DNA of 38,124 nt from Roseburia hominis (GTDB lineage: Bacteria > Bacillota > Clostridia > Lachnospirales > Lachnospiraceae). The stretch covers positions 1-38,124 of the forward strand of contig JAETOE010000033.1 in assembly GCA_021771815.1 (NCBI GenBank). Reading direction: 5' to 3'. The position numbers were made by a program, and so were the translations under genes. Numbering within the stretch: position 1 is the stretch's first letter; every line of letters begins with the position of its first letter. Shown here in pieces: positions 1 through 34,749 of the stretch. Below the pieces are notes generated by a model. That model worked only from the letters and a program-made list of their open reading frames with translations. It made no database searches and was not told the origin of the DNA.

Positions 1-69
<69 letters not shown>

Positions 70-4706: not shown

Positions 4707-5654
4707 TTATCTCTGCTTTACAAATGCCTTAACTTTCTCATAAATGCCCTGCGCGTCAAGCCCGTATTTATGAATAAGCTCAAGCGCCGGACCGGACTCT
4801 CCGAATACATCGTTCACACCGATTTTCAAAACCTTCGTCGGCTGTTTTTCGGACAGAACATCGCAGACCGCACTGCCAAGTCCTCCAATCACCGAATGCT
4901 CCTCCACAGTTACGACCTTTCCGGTCTTTGCCGCAGACGCAAGCACAAGCTCCTCGTCGAGCGGCTTGATCGTGTGAATGTTAATGATTTCCGCGTCGAT
5001 GCCGTCCGCCGCAAGAAGCTTCTCCGCCTCGCGCGCCTCGTTGACGCAAAGACCTGTAGCAAATACGGACACATCCTTACCCTCTTTTAAGACAATGCCC
5101 TTTCCGATCTGAAACTGATAGGTCGCCTCATCGTTGAATACCGGAACGGCAAGCCGTCCAAAGCGCAGGTACACCGGACCCACATGATTGTACGCCGCCT
5201 TTACCGCCGCTTTCGCCTCGATATCATCCGCAGGATTGATAACGACCATCCCCGGGATCACGCGCATTAAGGCAAGATCTTCAAGGCACTGGTGGGTCGC
5301 TCCGTCCTCACCGACGGAAATGCCTGCATGGGTCGCTCCTATCTTGACATTTAAGTGCGGGTATCCGATGGAATTGCGCACCTGCTCATAATTCCTTCCC
5401 GCCGCAAACATGGCAAAGGAACTGATGAACGGCACCTTGCCGCAGGCCGCAAGTCCCGCAGCAATTCCCGTCATATTCGCCTCTGCGATTCCGATATCCC
5501 AATGGCGCTCCGGAAACGCTTTCTTAAAAATTCCGGTCTTGGTCGCGCCCGCTAAATCAGCGTCCAGAACAATCAATTCCTCATGTTCTTTTCCAAGCTC
5601 TACAAGCGCATTTCCATAGCTTTCACGGGTAGCAACCTTCTTTATTTCCGACAT
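4707..5654 (-). CDS. Transketolase, C-terminal subunit
   Basis: A 315-residue subunit equivalent to the pyrimidine-binding and C-terminal domains of transketolase, the pentose phosphate enzyme that moves two-carbon units between sugar phosphates using thiamine diphosphate. The N-terminal part has DADLAGATKT and HWDIGIAEANMTGIAAGLA, where the Glu of GIAEAN is the residue that activates the cofactor. ISVGEDGATHQ contains the conserved His of the active site. The C-terminal domain contains NIHTIKPLDEE and VVTVEEHSVIGGLGSAV. The start overlaps the end of the N-subunit gene by 13 bases, which indicates translational coupling. A split enzyme is common in Clostridia and archaea. The sequence also resembles the related 1-deoxyxylulose 5-phosphate synthase fold, but length and pairing fit transketolase. 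Confidence 0.92.
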   Translation of the reverse strand: MSEIKKVATRESYGNALVELGKEHEELIVLDADLAGATKTGIFKKAFPERHWDIGIAEANMTGIAAGLAACGKVPFISSFAMFAAGRNYEQVRNSIGYPHLNVKIGATHAGISVGEDGATHQCLEDLALMRVIPGMVVINPADDIEAKAAVKAAYNHVGPVYLRFGRLAVPVFNDEATYQFQIGKGIVLKEGKDVSVFATGLCVNEAREAEKLLAADGIDAEIINIHTIKPLDEELVLASAAKTGKVVTVEEHSVIGGLGSAVCDVLSEKQPTKVLKIGVNDVFGESGPALELIHKYGLDAQGIYEKVKAFVKQR

Positions 5655-6478
5655 AATGCTTCACCTGCTTTCTCCAAGTCTTCCATCGCAATCGCGTATT
5701 CCTCGTCGTTCGGCGCTTTCCCGTGCCAATCGACGACATTTTCCATGAAGGAAACGCCTTTTCCCTTTAATGTCTTTGCGATAATTGCCGTGGGCATTCC
5801 TTTTGTCTCCCTCGCCTCTGTAAACGCGGCACGAATCTCATCAAAATCATTTCCGTTGATGTTGATCGCGTGGAAATTGAATGCCTCAAACTTCTTGTCA
5901 ATCGGGTACGGAGAACATACAGTATCAATCGAACCGTCAATCTGGAGATTGTTATTGTCAACAATTACAACAAGATTATCAAGCTTCTTAAAGCCAGCCC
6001 ACATAGCAGCTTCCCAGATCTGCCCTTCCTGAATCTCACCGTCTCCACAAAGTGCGTACACACGGTAATCCTTCTTGTCAAACTTCCCCGCTGCCGCCAT
6101 TCCGACCGCTGCCGAAAAGCCCTGTCCCAAAGACCCGCTCGACATGTCAACACCCGGTATATGCTTCATATCGGGATGTCCCTGTAAGTAAGAACCTGTA
6201 TGGCGCAGTGTCACAAGATCCTCCTTCGGGAAAAATCCGCGCTCCGCAAGCGTCGCATAAAGTCCCGGCGCCGTATGTCCCTTGGACAATACAAAACGGT
6301 CGCGGTCTGCCATCTTCGGATTCTGCGGGTCAATGTTCATCTCCTCGAAATACAGATAGGTAAAAATATCTGCCGCGGAAAGAGAGCCGCCCGGATGTCC
6401 TGCCTTTGCGCTGTGTACGGACGTTACAATGCCCTTGCGGATTTCATTTGCTGTCTTTTGAAGTTCCAGATTCGTCAT
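5642..6478 (-). CDS. Transketolase, N-terminal subunit
   Basis: A 278-residue thiamine-diphosphate-binding subunit. The cofactor motif GDGEIQEGQIWEAAMWAGF through VDNNNLQIDG (GDG ... NN) is intact, as are the substrate-site stretches SAKAGHPGGSLS and LSKGHTAPGLYATLA. It pairs with the C-terminal subunit encoded directly downstream with a 13-base overlap; both are needed for activity. I chose the ATG at 6478 (AAAGGA about 12 bases upstream). The longer reading would start inside the recR 3' end and pass through a hairpin (6517-6540) with no family similarity. Confidence 0.92.
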   Translation of the reverse strand: MTNLELQKTANEIRKGIVTSVHSAKAGHPGGSLSAADIFTYLYFEEMNIDPQNPKMADRDRFVLSKGHTAPGLYATLAERGFFPKEDLVTLRHTGSYLQGHPDMKHIPGVDMSSGSLGQGFSAAVGMAAAGKFDKKDYRVYALCGDGEIQEGQIWEAAMWAGFKKLDNLVVIVDNNNLQIDGSIDTVCSPYPIDKKFEAFNFHAININGNDFDEIRAAFTEARETKGMPTAIIAKTLKGKGVSFMENVVDWHGKAPNDEEYAIAMEDLEKAGEALCRK

Positions 6479-19847: not shown

Positions 19848-19933
19848 GGAGTCGTATCGAAGTGGTCATAACGGGGCGCACTCGAAATGCGTTTGCCCTC
19901 CGGGGCACGAGGGTTCGAATCCCTCCGACTCCG
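19848..19933 (+). tRNA. tRNA-Ser (anticodon CGA)
   Basis: An 86-base class II tRNA. The acceptor stem GGAGTCG pairs with CGACTCC, with discriminator G. The anticodon stem GCGCA/TGCGT encloses the loop CTCGAAA with anticodon CGA, reading UCG. A long variable arm (GCCC ... GGGGC) and the T arm (GAGGG TTCGAAT CCCTC) are typical of serine tRNA. No CCA is encoded. It has its own promoter and a terminator just after (19937-19969). Confidence 0.95.
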
Positions 19934-19936
19934 CTG

Positions 19937-19969
19937 AAATTCACAGACGGCACAGCCGCCTGTGAATTT
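19937..19969 (+). terminator. Terminator after tRNA-Ser
   Basis: A 15-bp stem with one mismatch (19937-19951 with 19955-19969, 3-base loop) followed by TGCTTTTTCTGG. Confidence 0.75.
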
Positions 19970-20028
19970 TGCTTTTTCTGGTATATTGGAATACAAACAA
20001 AAGCAAAAGAATAATCTCAAAGGATAGA

Positions 20029-20140
20029 GAGAATACTTGCTAATGCCAAATGCATATGCTACAATATGCCTAGGCAAAACGAAGTTAGTGCTCAATGCGG
20101 CACAAAATGAAAACCCCAGAGTGCCAGCTCTGGGGTTTTT
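20029..20140 (+). ncRNA. Repeated structured element after tRNA-Ser (copy A)
   Basis: A ~112-base segment that recurs, with the same start (GAGxATACTTGCTAATG), middle (GTGC ... CACAAA) and terminator, after tRNA-Pro at 22794-22894. The two copies share a small stem with a compensatory change: TGCC/GGCA here (20044-20047 with 20073-20076), TGTC/GACA in the other. Copy A has 11 extra bases in the stem's loop. It ends in a terminator (20110-20139). No known RNA family was recognised. It could instead encode a short peptide (ATG at 20043, MPNAYA); copy B also reads M-S-N-A-Y-A before stopping. A structured RNA seems likelier because downstream frames differ. A weak promoter may lie just upstream. 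Confidence 0.45.
20110..20139. terminator. Bidirectional terminator shared by copy A and the small toxin-like gene
   Basis: A 12-bp perfect stem AAAACCCCAGAG/CTCTGGGGTTTT (20110-20121 with 20128-20139, loop 6). T tracts on both strands allow it to end the plus-strand element and, in the minus direction, the small ORF ending at 20147. Confidence 0.8.
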
Positions 20141-20146
20141 GTTAGG

Positions 20147-20245
20147 CTAATTGTCGCAATCTCCACCGTCTAGCCATTTGCAAACATAGTAGGCAACTAT
20201 GCTTGCCATAACGGAGAGAAAAAACGAAGTTAATAAACTCAACAC
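20147..20245 (-). CDS. Small hydrophobic protein, putative type I toxin
   Basis: A 32-residue ORF too short for standard gene finders. It reads from GTG (or the next codon, TTG), after AGGAAGGGG, and ends at TAG (20147-20149). The peptide has one hydrophobic helix of about 18 residues (LLTSFFLSVMASIVAYY) followed by VCKWLDGGDCDN, a charged tail. This is the layout of Fst/TxpA-like type I toxins, and I recognise the KWLDG-type ending from small proteins of Clostridia. The transcript's 5' end (TTGTCGCA, 20275-20282 read on the minus strand) is complementary to TGCGACAA at 20151-20158 inside the last codons, so the ends can pair. An antitoxin RNA was not identified. Low-scoring promoter. Confidence 0.5.
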   Translation of the reverse strand: MLSLLTSFFLSVMASIVAYYVCKWLDGGDCDN

Positions 20246-20303
20246 GACATCCCCTTCCTGTTGCCAGTGTAGGGTGCGACAACATATAGAGGATATCACA
20301 GTT

Positions 20304-20399
20304 ATGGAAAATAGGGAAGACAGAATTCAACTGACAGATGCCAATGTCAGGCGAATAATATGCGCACGAATTAAGTCAAAAGATATTGAAAATTACTAA
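20304..20399 (+). CDS. Possible 31-residue protein, unknown
   Basis: An ATG at 20304 opens MENREDRIQLTDANVRRIICARIKSKDIENY, preceded by AGAGG about 11 bases upstream. The peptide is charged and helical in appearance and has no family I recognise. It may be a chance ORF or remnant. It lies just after the right arm of the inverted repeat (20275-20282), divergent from the small toxin-like gene. Confidence 0.2.
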   Translation: MENREDRIQLTDANVRRIICARIKSKDIENY

Positions 20400-20470
20400 T
20401 GCAAACATCAAGTCCCCAAGGAATATATACAGACATTCTGCACATCCTATTCCTGAAAGGACGGTGCACC

Positions 20471-20641
20471 ATGGAATCGAAAAGTAAAAATACCACGAGC
20501 AAATCCAACAATCTCTATGATGACGGTAACATCCCGGATGTCGATCTGCCGCAGAACAACGTGTCTGCGAAAGATACTTACAATGTGGAGCCTCTGCCGG
20601 AATCATCCAGACCGCGCAAAGACGGCCCGGGCGGCGATTGA
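20471..20641 (+). CDS. Conserved small protein, function unknown
   Basis: A 56-residue hydrophilic protein rich in Ser, Asn, Pro and Asp. It ends in VEPLPESSRPRKDGPGGD, a tail I associate with small proteins of Lachnospiraceae. No transmembrane helix or catalytic motif. RBS AAAGGA lies before ATG. It has its own terminator (20653-20698) and stands alone between the toxin-like gene and the alpha-glucosidase, so it is probably a single-gene transcript. The terminator and RBS support it as real; function is not inferred. Confidence 0.6.
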   Translation: MESKSKNTTSKSNNLYDDGNIPDVDLPQNNVSAKDTYNVEPLPESSRPRKDGPGGD

Positions 20642-20652
20642 CCTTTTACTGC

Positions 20653-20698
20653 AAAAAGCGTTTGCACACTCACTGTTGTGGGTATGCAGACGCTTTTT
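20653..20698 (+). terminator. Terminator after the 56-residue protein
   Basis: A 14-bp stem (20653-20666 with 20685-20698, one G-T pair) with a loop of about 18 bases. The right arm ends in five T (20694-20698). Starts 12 bases after the stop. Confidence 0.7.
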
Positions 20699-20759
20699 CA
20701 ATGCCGGCATGACCTGATATCCGCCAATCGGCCACCCCCGCTTTGTCTGGTAAATCCTC

Positions 20760-20843
20760 CTACTCCTGCCCTGCCTGATAAAACCAGTTACTTCTGCTTT
20801 GCCCGATAAAACCGGCTACTCCTGCCCTGCCTAATAAAGATAC
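20760..20843. repeat. Three tandem 28-bp imperfect repeats
   Basis: Units at 20760-20787, 20788-20815 and 20816-20843 share the form CTACTCCTGCCCTGCC followed by TGATAAAACC and differ at a few positions. A degenerate fourth unit may precede them. The third unit overlaps the last codons and stop of the alpha-glucosidase gene. There are no spacers between units, so it is a tandem repeat and not a CRISPR array. Confidence 0.7.
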
Positions 20844-22447
20844 ATCCGTGCCTCATACGGTCTAAACAACGCCTCGTCCGCAATCTCAGGATAATTGCAC
20901 AAGAGCAGCCCGCTCCCTGCCGGAACAACTGCGCCTATGTCCAGAGTTACAGTATCTCCAAAGAAATTACAAATCACATACAACTCCTGTGTATCCGTTT
21001 TCCGACAGTACGCAAAAAAATGCGCATCATCCTCCAAAAGAAGCTCATACGTGCCGCAGGCGATGACCGGAAGCGTTTTCCGCAGCCCAATCAGCTTTTT
21101 ATAATAAGAGAAAACAGAATCAGGATCTTCCCTCTCCGCTGCGGCGTTAATCTCCTTATAATTCGGATTGACCGCAATCCACGGCTGACCCGTCGTAAAG
21201 CCCGCCTCGCTGCCGTCATTCCACTGCATCGGCGTCCTCGCGTTATCTCTGCTCTTCGCATAGATCGACCGCATGACCTCCGCCTCGGAAAATCCTGCCG
21301 CAAGTCTGTCATGATAACAGTTGAGCGTCTCGATATCACGATAATCCCCAATAGCGTATTTTATATTTGTCATCCCAAGCTCTTCGCCCTGATAGATATA
21401 GGGCGTACCCTGCATTCCGTGCAGCACCGTAGCCAGCATCTTCGCCGACTGCACGCGGTATTCCCCGTCGTTTCCCCATCTGGAAACGATGCGCGGCAGA
21501 TCGTGATTGTTCCAGAACAGGCTGTTCCAACCGCAGCCATGAAGTCCTGTCTGCCAACGGCTTAACACCTGTTTTAGCTTAACGAACGGCAACGGCTCCA
21601 AATCCCATTTTTCCCTGCCCGGCTGCTGGTCCAGACAGATATGTTCAAACTGGAACACCATAGAAAACTCACTGCCGTCGGGGTTGCTGTACTGCTTCGC
21701 GCGCGCAATATCCGCGCCCCACGCCTCGCCGACCGTGACCAAATCTCCCTTTTGGAACGTCTCACGGCTCAACTCCCGGATAAATTCATGCAGTCTCGGA
21801 CCGTTTGCCGTAATTTTCTGCTCCGGTTCCTTGGCAATCTGGTCGATGACGTCCAAGCGGAAGCCGCCGACTCCTTTCTCCATCCACCAGAGAATCATAT
21901 CGTAGATTTCCCGTCTTACCTTCTCATTGTTCCAGTTCAAGTCCGGCTGCTTTATCGCAAACTGATGGAAATAATACTGCCCAAGCTCTGGCACCCACTC
22001 CCATGCGCTTCCTCCGAACGCCGCTTTCATATCGTTTGGCAGGACTCCTTCTTCCCCGTCCGCCCAGACGTAGTAATCATGATACGGATTGTCCTTACTC
22101 TTTTTGGCTTCCTGAAACCACCGATGCTCGTCCGAGGTATGGTTCAGCACAAGATCCATGATGATCTTAATGTGATGCTCTGCCGCCGCCGCGATCAGTG
22201 CCTCCATATCCTCCATCGATCCAAACATCGGTTCAATGTCCTGATAATCCGAAATGTCATACCCGTTATCTTCCTGCGGCGACCGATAGACCGGGGAGAG
22301 CCAGATCGCGTCGATCCCCAATTCCTCCAGATAGTCCAGTCTGTTGATGATTCCGCGCAGATCGCCGATTCCGTCCCCGTTCGTGTCCTGAAAGCTTTTC
22401 GGGTAAATCTGGTAGATTACGGATTTCTTCCACCATTTGTCTGCCAT
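20831..22447 (-). CDS. GH13 alpha-glucosidase (oligo-1,6-glucosidase-like)
   Basis: A 538-residue intracellular glycosidase of GH13, probably subfamily 31. The N-terminal IYQIYPKSFQDTNGDGIGDLRGI is typical. Catalytic residues are visible: nucleophile D199 (GFRLDVID), acid/base E241 (TVGEAWG) and D316 (NNHDLPR). The residue after the nucleophile is Val (V200), the choice associated with alpha-1,6 over alpha-1,4 specificity, so isomalto-oligosaccharides are the likely substrates; trehalose-6-phosphate hydrolase is an alternative. No signal peptide. The start at 22447 follows AAGGAGGACATGCT; the longer frame includes promoter sequence (22509-22537). No sugar transporter is adjacent. Confidence 0.9.
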   Translation of the reverse strand: MADKWWKKSVIYQIYPKSFQDTNGDGIGDLRGIINRLDYLEELGIDAIWLSPVYRSPQEDNGYDISDYQDIEPMFGSMEDMEALIAAAAEHHIKIIMDLVLNHTSDEHRWFQEAKKSKDNPYHDYYVWADGEEGVLPNDMKAAFGGSAWEWVPELGQYYFHQFAIKQPDLNWNNEKVRREIYDMILWWMEKGVGGFRLDVIDQIAKEPEQKITANGPRLHEFIRELSRETFQKGDLVTVGEAWGADIARAKQYSNPDGSEFSMVFQFEHICLDQQPGREKWDLEPLPFVKLKQVLSRWQTGLHGCGWNSLFWNNHDLPRIVSRWGNDGEYRVQSAKMLATVLHGMQGTPYIYQGEELGMTNIKYAIGDYRDIETLNCYHDRLAAGFSEAEVMRSIYAKSRDNARTPMQWNDGSEAGFTTGQPWIAVNPNYKEINAAAEREDPDSVFSYYKKLIGLRKTLPVIACGTYELLLEDDAHFFAYCRKTDTQELYVICNFFGDTVTLDIGAVVPAGSGLLLCNYPEIADEALFRPYEARMYLY

Positions 22448-22508
22448 AGCATGTCCTCCTTGCTTTGATTCTCTTTCGGATGATTTCCTTTTGCTCATGC
22501 TTAATCTA

Positions 22509-22537
22509 TTATTACCATATCTGCCTTCTCCTTTCAA
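22509..22537 (-). promoter_or_regulatory. Promoter of the alpha-glucosidase gene
   Basis: TTGAAA (22532-22537), 17 bases, TAATAA (22509-22514) on the minus strand, about 60 bases before the ATG at 22447. Confidence 0.55.
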
Positions 22538-22587
22538 TTCCGATTCCACATAAGCAACATAAAAATAAGAAATATTTCTCAAAATAC

Positions 22588-22616
22588 TTTAAAATCCAAA
22601 AGATATATGATAAAAT
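22588..22616 (+). promoter_or_regulatory. Possible promoter of tRNA-Pro
   Basis: TTTAAA (22588-22593), 17 bases, TAAAAT (22611-22616) on the plus strand, about 50 bases before the tRNA. AT-rich surroundings make chance matches likely. Confidence 0.4.
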
Positions 22617-22668
22617 AAATAAGCTGTTCGGGAATCATCCGTAGCAAATCTCATAAAGTAAGTATTAT

Positions 22669-22742
22669 CGGAGTATGGCGTAGTTTGGTAGCGCGCACGG
22701 CTGGGGGCCGTGAGGTCGCAGGTTCAAATCCTGTTACTCCGA
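22669..22742 (+). tRNA. tRNA-Pro (anticodon GGG)
   Basis: A 74-base tRNA. Acceptor CGGAGTA pairs with TACTCCG, discriminator A. The D arm is typical, the anticodon stem CACGG/CCGTG encloses CTGGGGG with anticodon GGG (22703-22705), and the T arm is GCAGG TTCAAAT CCTGT. No CCA encoded. No terminator directly follows; the structured element B starts ~50 bases later and would be cotranscribed. Confidence 0.95.
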
Positions 22743-22793
22743 TTCCTTGGCAGGGGCACGGAAGCCTTGAAATTAAAGGATTCCGGCTAAAAA

Positions 22794-22894
22794 GAGCATA
22801 CTTGCTAATGTCAAATGCATATGCTCAGACAAAATGATATAAGTGCCATAACGACACAAACCAAAACCCACAGATGGTAGTCTGTGGGTTTTTT
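22794..22894 (+). ncRNA. Repeated structured element after tRNA-Pro (copy B)
   Basis: The second copy of the element at 20029-20140. It shares GAGxATACTTGCTAATG, the CAAATGCATATGCT block, the GTGC ... CACAAA part and a terminator of different sequence but the same form. The stem TGTC/GACA (22809-22812 with 22828-22831) carries a compensatory C-to-T and G-to-A change relative to copy A. Because no terminator separates it from tRNA-Pro it is probably on the same transcript. Function unknown; see findings. Confidence 0.45.
22863..22892. terminator. Terminator of copy B, shared with the SGNH hydrolase gene
   Basis: A 12-bp perfect stem (22863-22874 with 22881-22892, loop 6) with TTTTTT on the plus side and TTTTGG on the minus side. 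It can end the tRNA/element transcript and the SGNH gene ending at 22917. Confidence 0.8.
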
Positions 22895-22916
22895 AATAGA
22901 GCATTTATATGCATTT

Positions 22917-23705
22917 TTACCGAAATACTCCCGCCTGCTCATCCTGCCTGATCCGCTCCGCGACTGTCTCCGCTAACAGCGCATACCCTGTCTCGTTCGG
23001 ATGAACGCCGTCCGTAAAATATTCCGGATGATTCTCTGTCACCGCATACAGATCAATGAATCCTGCGCCTGTCTCCTCGGCAGCCGCACGCACCGCCTCC
23101 CTGACCGTTCCCTGTATCACGCCGTTGTCAATACCGTAAATAATCTCGCCGCTCTCTAACGGAAACGCCTCGGGCGGCGCCATGACATAAACGTACGGCC
23201 GGCTCGGAATCTCCTGAAGTTCCTTTATGAGCGCGCTGCACTGCTTCTTATACTCGGCTTCATTCCAATATGCCGCGCGGGAATCATTTGTTCCGAGCAT
23301 AAGAATCAGCAGGTCCGGCGACTGCATTTCGGTAAGTTCAAGATAACCTGTACTGCGGTAACTCTTTTCCGATGTATCCAGAAGCGTCGCTCCCGGCACG
23401 CCGTAATTAATGACCGCATACCGCGCGCCCAATAACTGCTCTAAGCGCGCGGGGTAGCATGCCGTAGGACGTTCCTCCTTCGAAAGCCCGCTGCCGTAAG
23501 TGATGCTGTCGCCCAGACAATAGACCTGACAGATCCGCTTCCTTGCTTCCGCGTCCACTTCTTCCCTGACTGTCTCGGTGTTCCAGAAAAGGACTGCAAA
23601 AAGCAGACATACCGCCAACACATTCACCCATTTTTTTCGATTAAAGATCCGGCTTTTTCCTTCTTCCTTCATCTTGCCCCCACGCAGTTTTTCTCCTTCT
23701 ATCAT
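22917..23705 (-). CDS. SGNH/GDSL hydrolase, membrane-anchored
   Basis: A 262-residue esterase-type hydrolase. A basic N-terminus and one helix (about residues 26-42) anchor or export it. The SGNH blocks are present: GDSITYGSG (Ser67), GATLL with the block II Gly, GTND, and DGVHPNETGY with the Asp-x-x-His pair. It may remove acyl groups from wall polymers or exported sugars; the substrate is unknown. Two starts are possible, at 23705 and at 23672 (GGGGG before it); the longer is given. It is convergent with the tRNA-Pro transcript and divergent from the 51-residue gene. Confidence 0.85.
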   Translation of the reverse strand: MIEGEKLRGGKMKEEGKSRIFNRKKWVNVLAVCLLFAVLFWNTETVREEVDAEARKRICQVYCLGDSITYGSGLSKEERPTACYPARLEQLLGARYAVINYGVPGATLLDTSEKSYRSTGYLELTEMQSPDLLILMLGTNDSRAAYWNEAEYKKQCSALIKELQEIPSRPYVYVMAPPEAFPLESGEIIYGIDNGVIQGTVREAVRAAAEETGAGFIDLYAVTENHPEYFTDGVHPNETGYALLAETVAERIRQDEQAGVFR

Positions 23706-34481: not shown

Positions 34482-34749
34482 TCCGAGCGCCTCCCATCGA
34501 ACCAAAACCATAAACGTTACCACCACAGTTAACTCAGCCCAGGCACCCTTGCGGCACACAAGAGCTTCTGCTTAGGGCTGCTCCATTCCTGACCTGACCC
34601 GGTTCACAGATTCCTGTTGCGCAAGACCCAAACGTCAACGCCACTTATGATGGGCTGCTTTACAGCTTAACGATCCTCCGTTCGGCATCACCCCAACTAT
34701 AGCGGATTGTTGGTGCAGGGTACCGCTACCACCCCGGCTGCTCGGAGTC
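34482..34749 (-). ncRNA. ffs: Signal recognition particle RNA, large bacterial type
   Basis: A ~268-base RNA read on the minus strand. The helix 8 core GGGTCAGGTCAGGAATGG, then GAGCAGCCC, is intact. The Alu part (GGGGTGGTAGCGGTACCC and CAATCCGC) and the 3' stretch GTGTGCCGCAAGGGTGCC, then TGGGCTGAG, follow the Bacillus subtilis 6S-type SRP RNA in order. The 5' CCGAGC (from 34744) pairs with the 3' GCTCGG (ending at 34483), closing the molecule. It scaffolds Ffh for membrane targeting. Boundaries are good to a few bases. A T-rich stretch after 34482 ends the transcript. 34401-34481 is the spacer to the PsiE-like gene and shows no other element. Confidence 0.95.

Follow-up and report, generated by a model that had tools for sequence, protein, structure and literature searches.

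The closest described relatives of the locus analysed here are par_pAD1 of Enterococcus faecalis (Fst, RNA I/RNA II) and the Fst/Ldr family, type I toxin-antitoxin modules with convergent promoters, a shared terminator and direct repeats on opposite strands over the toxin start. In par_pAD1, the toxin mRNA hides its 5′ end and its Shine-Dalgarno site, and the Fst peptide has about 30 residues, with a tryptophan between its membrane helix and its charged tail. The available text on par modules adds that a U-turn motif for the kissing complex is absent from some par homologs (PMC7472228). Lpt/RNAII of Lactobacillus rhamnosus plasmids has an Fst-like layout and encodes a 29-residue membrane peptide, Lpt, and a proline-to-serine change in Fst abolished toxicity, according to the parts of the source at hand (PMC6811638). 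Within the class Clostridia, the type I modules of Clostridioides difficile likewise consist of convergent toxin and antitoxin genes, but, unlike the module described below, they encode toxins of 50–53 residues and have a long antisense overlap that is thought to drive RNA decay, and the accessible portion of the same Clostridia review names no Fst-like sequences other than those in C. bolteae and C. asparagiforme (PMC6563280).

A preliminary description of a 38,124-nucleotide stretch of Roseburia hominis DNA (hereafter the window) had pointed to a duplicated element behind two tRNA genes and suggested that it might be a new structured RNA family. Both segments, copy A (20029–20140) and copy B (22794–22894), are indeed present, with a start, a middle and a terminator common to the two, and they are preceded by tRNA-Ser(CGA) at 19848–19934 and tRNA-Pro(GGG) at 22668–22743, respectively. 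Their similarity is real and far above chance: the starts are 94% identical across 33 bases, and model R1, made from 35 sequences with copy A in and copy B out, gives copy B a score of 57.1 bits, with E 6.1e-12 within the window. More copies exist as well, since BLAST in 40 genomes returned two further ones elsewhere in the same genome; a pattern search allowing up to 3 mismatches in 145 relatives gave matches in 2 genomes only, the own one counted. The best two own-genome matches to R1 below the four copies (C53 and C85, at most 33.4 bits) were inspected and judged to be chance. Sequence comparison shows the components described below, how specifically they pair and how widely they occur. In the best reading, 20029–20318 is very probably a complete type I module of the par_pAD1/Fst kind and 22794–22894 an orphan antitoxin.

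Copy A looks like the antitoxin half of such a module. Its conserved start corresponds to a promoter, TTGCTA-17-TACAAT, with the −35 box at 20037–20042 and a −10 box with TG extension at 20060–20065 (both plus strand), separated by a 17-base spacer. Across related loci, an antitoxin-side promoter scoring at least 11.5 occurs in 192/214, compared with 10/214 shuffled sequences and 22/201 upstream stretches. The short reading frame M-(P/S)-N-A-Y-A that the preliminary description saw in both copies starts between the two promoter boxes, before the predicted transcript begins, and amounts to only 9 codons in copy B. The putative antitoxin RNA, about 70 nt long (20072–20141, plus strand), has both ends placed from sequence, the start 7 bases past the −10 box and the end by the terminator. 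The conserved middle is its antisense segment (20076–20105, plus strand), the equivalent of DRa/DRb, which contains AAAACGAAGTTA; the partner copy of this direct repeat lies within the toxin gene start at 20221–20232 and is identical at 12/12 positions. Within the antisense segment, 110/177 loci (redundant ones removed) can form a small hairpin, against 55 expected from shuffles. The terminator at 20110–20139, which would be common to the antitoxin and toxin RNAs, has a 12-pair stem with A4/T4 ends, making it usable on both strands; it was listed by the program on the minus strand only, since on the plus strand the program counts the T-run into the stem, and that strand was read by eye. Among related loci, T-runs of 4 on both terminator strands were seen in only 79/205 in a crude scan.

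The small gene on the opposite strand beside copy A, at 20147–20242, was overlooked by the preliminary description. It comprises 31 codons on the minus strand with a putative TTG start, and its product has one predicted membrane helix (hydropathy 1.92 over residues 3–21), a CKWLD motif in which Trp23 follows the hydrophobic stretch, and an acidic tail, LDGGDCDN. KWL is present in 206/214 related toxins, a constancy that is partly due to selection because the search patterns required CKWL, and toxin set A5 was filtered for KW. Upstream lie a Shine-Dalgarno sequence, GGAAGGGG (20251–20258, minus strand), which is predicted to pair with an upstream ACCCU, and a weak candidate toxin promoter, TTCCCT-17-TATCCT (20290–20318, minus strand), whose score is tied with two other candidates; toxin promoters of relatives have a mean score of 11.2 (n=208, with no control set on the toxin side). 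The predicted 5′ leader of the toxin mRNA pairs with the 3′ tail of its own locus at a mean of −18.1, whereas pairings across loci average −15.1 (z −12.7; redundant loci removed, n=175), and a null control of leader against mid-ORF gave z 0.8. The preference holds on average, since the tail from the same locus is the single best in only 3/175 loci. The Shine-Dalgarno site is mostly paired in 157/167 predicted toxin leaders, compared with 79% when the leaders are shuffled.

Antitoxins and toxins of this kind fit each other locus by locus. Across 214 related loci, obtained from 252 toxin matches by dropping short flanks and duplicates, the repeat score of antitoxin against toxin start is 32.9 within a locus and 15.0 between loci, and it exceeds 25 in 192/214 cognate pairs versus 0.7% of non-cognate pairs. 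An upstream control (n=203) had its 99th percentile at 21, a score that a weak tail of 11/214 loci does not surpass, and the 137 loci left out of the initial analysis scored 33.1 within against 15.1 between. Copy A, with a score of 24 and rank 3 of 81, is among the weaker ones; five inspected plasmid modules scored 41, 33, 40, 34 and 23. In predicted duplex energies, antitoxin A reaches −34.7 kcal/mol with the start region of its own toxin, while the genome's two remaining toxins give −23.3 and −15.0. Taken over the genome, duplexes with the own toxin lie at −34.7, −38.1 and −38.7, and those with another of its toxins are no better than −25.1. Antitoxin C64 also pairs well with a toxin of the relative G053 (−30.5), so that specificity is not absolute.

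From these parts, we infer that both RNAs are transcribed, that translation is blocked, and that the peptide is toxic and damages the membrane. The strong promoter would drive the ~70-nt antitoxin RNA rightwards, and a weaker promoter would drive a leftward mRNA for the 31-residue membrane peptide, with both RNAs ending at the one common terminator. Because the two RNAs carry opposite strands of the direct repeats, the antitoxin is expected to pair with the toxin mRNA over its ribosome-binding region and start, which would block translation, and internal pairing may hold the 5′ end and Shine-Dalgarno site of the toxin mRNA. Should the antitoxin drop, because the element is lost or the cell is stressed, the peptide would be made and could harm the membrane.

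All of the par RNA features that we tested are found in the module, intramolecular pairing of the toxin mRNA by prediction, and the layout agrees with the description of par in the available text of PMC7472228. The difference from Fst lies in the peptide, where the window toxin has serine in place of the essential proline and serine in place of glycine four residues on, giving SxxxS and thus strictly lacking the motif of the Fst majority, P/D/S/TxxxG(C). Members of this clade mostly have SxxxS or SxxxG in a helix that ends Cys-Lys-Trp-Leu-Asp: a census of 205 toxins (9/214 left out) counted SxxxS 100, SxxxG 61, AxxxG 25 and TxxxG 8 times. They also differ from Lpt, among whose homologs Pro11 is conserved according to the consulted part of PMC6811638, by having serine, alanine or threonine there. 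Curated models see little of the clade. None of seven toxins shown with scores passes a cut-off, and for the NCBIfam Fst model NF033608 the window toxin has no listed match, the genome has none over the cut-off and none at the toxin, and relatives give weak matches in 16/99 (best E 0.012). The window toxin would hence work like Fst yet fall outside NF033608 membership. Profile similarity to NF047374, which we take to be the model of the C. difficile toxins CD2517.1, CD2907.1 and CD0956.2, is weak but seen in 89/99 toxins (best E 1.3e-4), the window toxin scoring 14.3–14.4 bits under a curated cut-off of 60 bits. Among solved structures, no related chain was found at E up to 10, with two chance matches.

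Copy B looks, from its sequence, like a decayed antitoxin left orphaned by a sister module from which the toxin gene and the −10 box have disappeared. A −35 box, TTGCTA (22802–22807, plus strand), is left over, and the −10 box is deleted. The preliminary description had counted 11 extra bases in a loop of copy A; there are 10, and as they hold 5/6 bases of the −10 box, they speak for a loss in B rather than a loop insertion in A. The antisense segment of copy B (22826–22862, plus strand) fits a toxin in the relative G053 and none of the three of its own genome, with duplexes of −40.3 kcal/mol for the G053 module-1 toxin compared with −18.3, −15.0 and −12.2 for the own ones; of six toxins tried, this one from a relative was the only fit. 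The counterpart of copy B in G053 is a module beside tRNA-Pro, and no toxin match was found near copy B itself. The orphan might still be live as the 3′ trailer of the tRNA-Pro transcript, ending at its own stem (22863–22892, listed by the program on the minus strand, T-run by eye), a possibility that we rate as improbable. The hairpin after tRNA-Pro (22759–22785, plus strand) has no T-run, whereas its G053 counterpart has one, and the terminator listing contains no plus-strand terminator between tRNA-Pro and copy B. A T-run terminator follows only 11/29 tRNA-Pro genes in a crude scan, and the hairpin in the relative G034 (L250) also lacks a T-run; its absence after tRNA-Pro is thus common, which lowers the odds of the trailer reading. 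If this reading were true, copy B would be an anti-addiction RNA made from a tRNA promoter, an antitoxin against a toxin absent from its own genome, and the cell could shed or resist incoming elements that bear a G053-type module.

The first proposal, a new stand-alone structured RNA family with its function in the fold itself, has the covarying terminator (11/13 pairs in 25 related loci), the frequent small hairpin and the lack of an Rfam match on its side. At gathering thresholds, Rfam finds only two tRNAs, SRP RNA and an SSU rRNA fragment in the whole window, and a permissive search of 19900–23000 gave only STnc240 at 20080–20145, with 22.9 bits against a threshold of 55. The change from TGCC/GGCA to TGTC/GACA, on which the proposal had leaned, is present, but the covariation of this stem is no better than in shuffles: in alignment A4 of 35 relatives it is paired in 52.9% of cells compared with 51.4% when shuffled, 138/500 shuffles are as high in pairing and 86/500 reach its covariation score. 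It does exceed slid versions of itself (24.3–37.1%), a control that favours structure taken from one aligned sequence, and its left arm falls in the promoter, before the point where the predicted RNA starts. Seen as an inverted repeat, the register originally proposed ranked top in each of two sets (z 5.0 with N 55 in the first, z 2.9 with N 97 in the second), promoters with a spacer other than 17 and redundant ones having been dropped; with stricter removal of near-relatives, registers 12–14 combined were no longer significant in the second set, at z 1.1 with N 62 and z 0.8 with N 38, and both sets pooled gave z 2.3 (N 53). Toxin promoters as a control were null (N 138). The middle segment, moreover, differs between loci together with the neighbouring toxin gene. 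It is most likely that the two segments do not represent a new type of structured RNA, and a function in the fold itself is very improbable; a conserved non-coding RNA that no Rfam family covers is probably involved, as had been supposed, but the preliminary description misread both which feature is conserved and the reason for it. The position of A and B, both 3′ of tRNA genes, could also suggest integration scars or attachment sites, against which stand shared segments that begin past the tRNA genes, no repeated tRNA sequence seen, and a conserved anatomy of promoter, repeat and terminator. There is no tRNA by the genome's other two copies in the stretch examined, nor in 72/77 related loci; the tRNA link of the element is near chance, with a tRNA gene in 6/80 and 5/77 related loci (the latter of at least 2.9 kb, excluding the window's own copy A loci), the expected frequency being a rough estimate from tRNA gene density with no control set. 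We regard scars as having next to no likelihood.

The rival closest to the toxin-antitoxin reading keeps its parts and takes the peptide to be a non-toxic small membrane protein that the antisense RNA merely tunes. The serine in place of the proline that Fst needs would suit this, as would the members on chromosomes, the function of chromosomal Fst systems being called obscure in the available part of PMC7472228; against it, SxxxG and TxxxG toxins are named there as natural Fst variants. The patchy spread (28/62 genomes of the genus), the tandem copies and the plasmid carriage look like those of addiction modules, and close control by an antisense RNA, together with a hidden start site, fits a product that does harm. 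A non-toxic peptide is, on balance, unlikely, though less so than the other rivals.

The toxin clade occurs in 129/397 Lachnospiraceae genomes and 115/334 genera, and it has relatives on Enterococcus, Streptococcus and Mediterraneibacter plasmids, where no annotated feature lies under the 20 + 40 plasmid matches listed, the plasmid gene table being incomplete. Titles and abstract starts in the literature held nothing describing this clade, an earlier mention in Fozo 2010 or Weaver 2009 being possible; a search joining Fst, type I toxin-antitoxin and Lachnospiraceae found no paper, and the string CKWLD gave an unrelated match only. The module looks like an overlooked gene pair of a type that many Lachnospiraceae gut bacteria carry. 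Its paired loci offer a couple of hundred natural cognate and non-cognate cases for how such RNAs recognise their own partner, and together they would represent a large group of membrane peptides under antisense control, missed by curated models, in the Lachnospiraceae, many of which are gut bacteria.

Both look-alike segments of the preliminary description, copy A (20029–20140) and copy B (22794–22894), are genuinely present, 3′ of tRNA-Ser and tRNA-Pro respectively, with copy A carrying 10 extra bases rather than the 11 originally counted. A BLAST search of the genome with copy A returned two more copies on other contigs (C64 and C36). A covariance model of 35 sequences, with A, C64 and C36 included and B left out, scored C64 at 95.5, A at 94.3 and C36 at 90.1 bits, values that are high by construction as all three are in the model; B, absent from it, scored 57.1 bits. 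The next-best matches in the genome reached at most 33.4 bits, and the best two, when examined, were chance-like. Other RNAs in the window are a large bacterial SRP RNA (34483–34745, minus strand) and, at the edge of the contig, part of a 16S rRNA (1–69, minus strand).

The shared start of copy A is, by sequence, a good plus-strand promoter (TTGCTA, a 17-base spacer and TACAAT with a TG extension), from which an antitoxin RNA would start at ~20072 and end at ~20141. Promoter scores of at least 11.5 were found on the antitoxin side in 192/214 relative loci, compared with 10/214 shuffled and 22/201 upstream stretches. The terminator stem, which covaries among relatives, is symmetric and thus usable on both strands, the minus-strand version being flagged by a terminator scan and the plus-strand version by eye. 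Beyond it lies a 31-codon putative toxin open reading frame (ORF) on the minus strand (20242–20147), preceded by a strong ribosome-binding site. Relatives of this ORF in the same genome adjoin copies C64 and C36; none was found beside copy B.

In a par-type type I toxin–antitoxin module, repeats common to the antitoxin and the toxin start should match inside a module and differ between modules. The repeat score, which measures this match, was 32.9 within the same locus versus 15.2 between different loci for the first 81 loci, 33.1 versus 15.1 for 137 later-fetched loci, and 32.9 versus 15.0 for all 214. Scores above 25 were reached by 192/214 cognate pairs versus 0.7% of wrong pairs, with 11/214 loci at 21 or below; copy A's own score is modest (24, rank 3 of 81). 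Predicted duplexes with the own toxin reach −34.7 (A), −38.1 (C64) and −38.7 kcal/mol (C36), versus −25.1 kcal/mol at best with another toxin of the same genome. Pairing specificity is not absolute, since antitoxin C64 is predicted to reach −30.5 kcal/mol with a toxin of the related genome G053.

Toxin mRNA leaders are predicted to pair better with their own tails than with those of other loci (means −18.1 versus −15.1; z −12.7, n=175), although the own tail ranks first among all tails in only 3/175 loci; between leader and mid-ORF no such effect was seen (z 0.8). The Shine-Dalgarno sequence is mostly paired in 157/167 predicted leaders, versus 79% with shuffled leaders. PMC7472228 describes the par family by convergent promoters, a shared terminator, direct repeats and both of these internal mRNA pairings (leader–tail and Shine-Dalgarno).

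The left arm of the small stem for which covariation had been claimed (TGCC/GGCA in A, TGTC/GACA in B) falls within the spacer of the promoter, before the point where the RNA is predicted to start. Among 35 aligned relatives the stem pairs in 52.9% of cells, which exceeds slid versions (24.3–37.1%) but not shuffles (51.4%, 138/500). A looser inverted-repeat test in the same register gave z 5.0 (N 55) in a first set, or 4.2 (N 38) after stricter removal of relatives, and z 2.9 (N 97) in a second set. Taking registers 12–14 jointly gave z 1.1 (N 62) and 0.8 (N 38) in the second set, and 2.3 (N 53) with both sets pooled. In the antitoxin promoters of some relatives (L092, L071, L040, L029, L100, L094 and L226), inverted repeats of 7–11 bases flank the −10 box in this register.

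In copy B the −35 box is still present, as are the antisense segment and the stem of the terminator, whereas five of the six bases of the −10 box are gone and there is no toxin gene. As read from the sequence, the intact form has a copy of the repeat ATATGC on either side of the 10 bases missing from B, and their loss would resemble a slippage deletion. None of the genome's own three toxins fits the antisense segment of B (−18.3, −15.0 and −12.2 kcal/mol), but one G053 toxin does (−40.3 kcal/mol); by repeat score against six toxins, all except this one gave 12 to 21. G053 carries two tandem modules directly 3′ of tRNA-Pro (locus L278, about 4987–5683), of which module 2 matches the region of A (83% identity over 312 bases) and module 1 matches B (78% over 119 bases). 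The order there is tRNA-Pro, module 2, module 1, small ORF, glucosidase and GDSL gene, versus tRNA-Ser, A, small ORF, glucosidase, tRNA-Pro, B and GDSL in the window. From these gene orders, the two copies behind different tRNA genes would be a former tandem pair of modules that rearrangement has separated. An 80-codon ORF (20399–20641, plus strand), with no function assigned, is kept beside the G053 modules (85% identity, 74 residues).

On another reading, drawn from this one locus, copy B might be carried as a trailer on the tRNA transcript and serve as an anti-addiction RNA. The hairpin 3′ of tRNA-Pro (22744–22800) has no T-run where its G053 counterpart has TTCTTTTT, so tRNA-Pro may read through into B, and the terminator listing of the window holds no plus-strand terminator between the two. 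However, a similar hairpin after tRNA-Pro in the related genome G034 likewise lacks a T-run, and a crude scan found no T-run terminator after 18/29 tRNA-Pro genes, G034 among them; as such absence is common, we consider a functional trailer very improbable.

The toxin clade occurs in 129/397 sampled Lachnospiraceae genomes, in 28/62 genomes of the own genus (in part through weak matches), in at least 521 stretches of the GTDB set and at 35 viral-contig loci. Searching plasmids at E up to 1 gave 250 records, 192 from Enterococcus and 239 with <60% identity; five plasmid modules examined had repeat scores of 41, 33, 40, 34 and 23. The window toxin, as a 32-mer, had no Pfam match. Among 99 aligned toxins, 16 weakly matched the Fst model NF033608, 89 the model NF047374 for C. 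difficile type I toxins (best E 1.3e-4), 5 Pfam Ldr_toxin and 93 PHROG 738, which has no function given; small membrane helices also match unrelated models by chance, for example DUF2158 in 52/99. PHROG 738 and the C. difficile model, both weak across this alignment, may form one larger superfamily. Whereas Fst has PxxxG in its helix, the present clade mostly has SxxxS (100 of 205 toxins) or SxxxG (61). The module appears from its sequence to be par/Fst-like in its working, yet outside curated-model membership, and these features, together with a helix motif unlike that of Fst, point to a system of a known kind whose toxins form a divergent clade.
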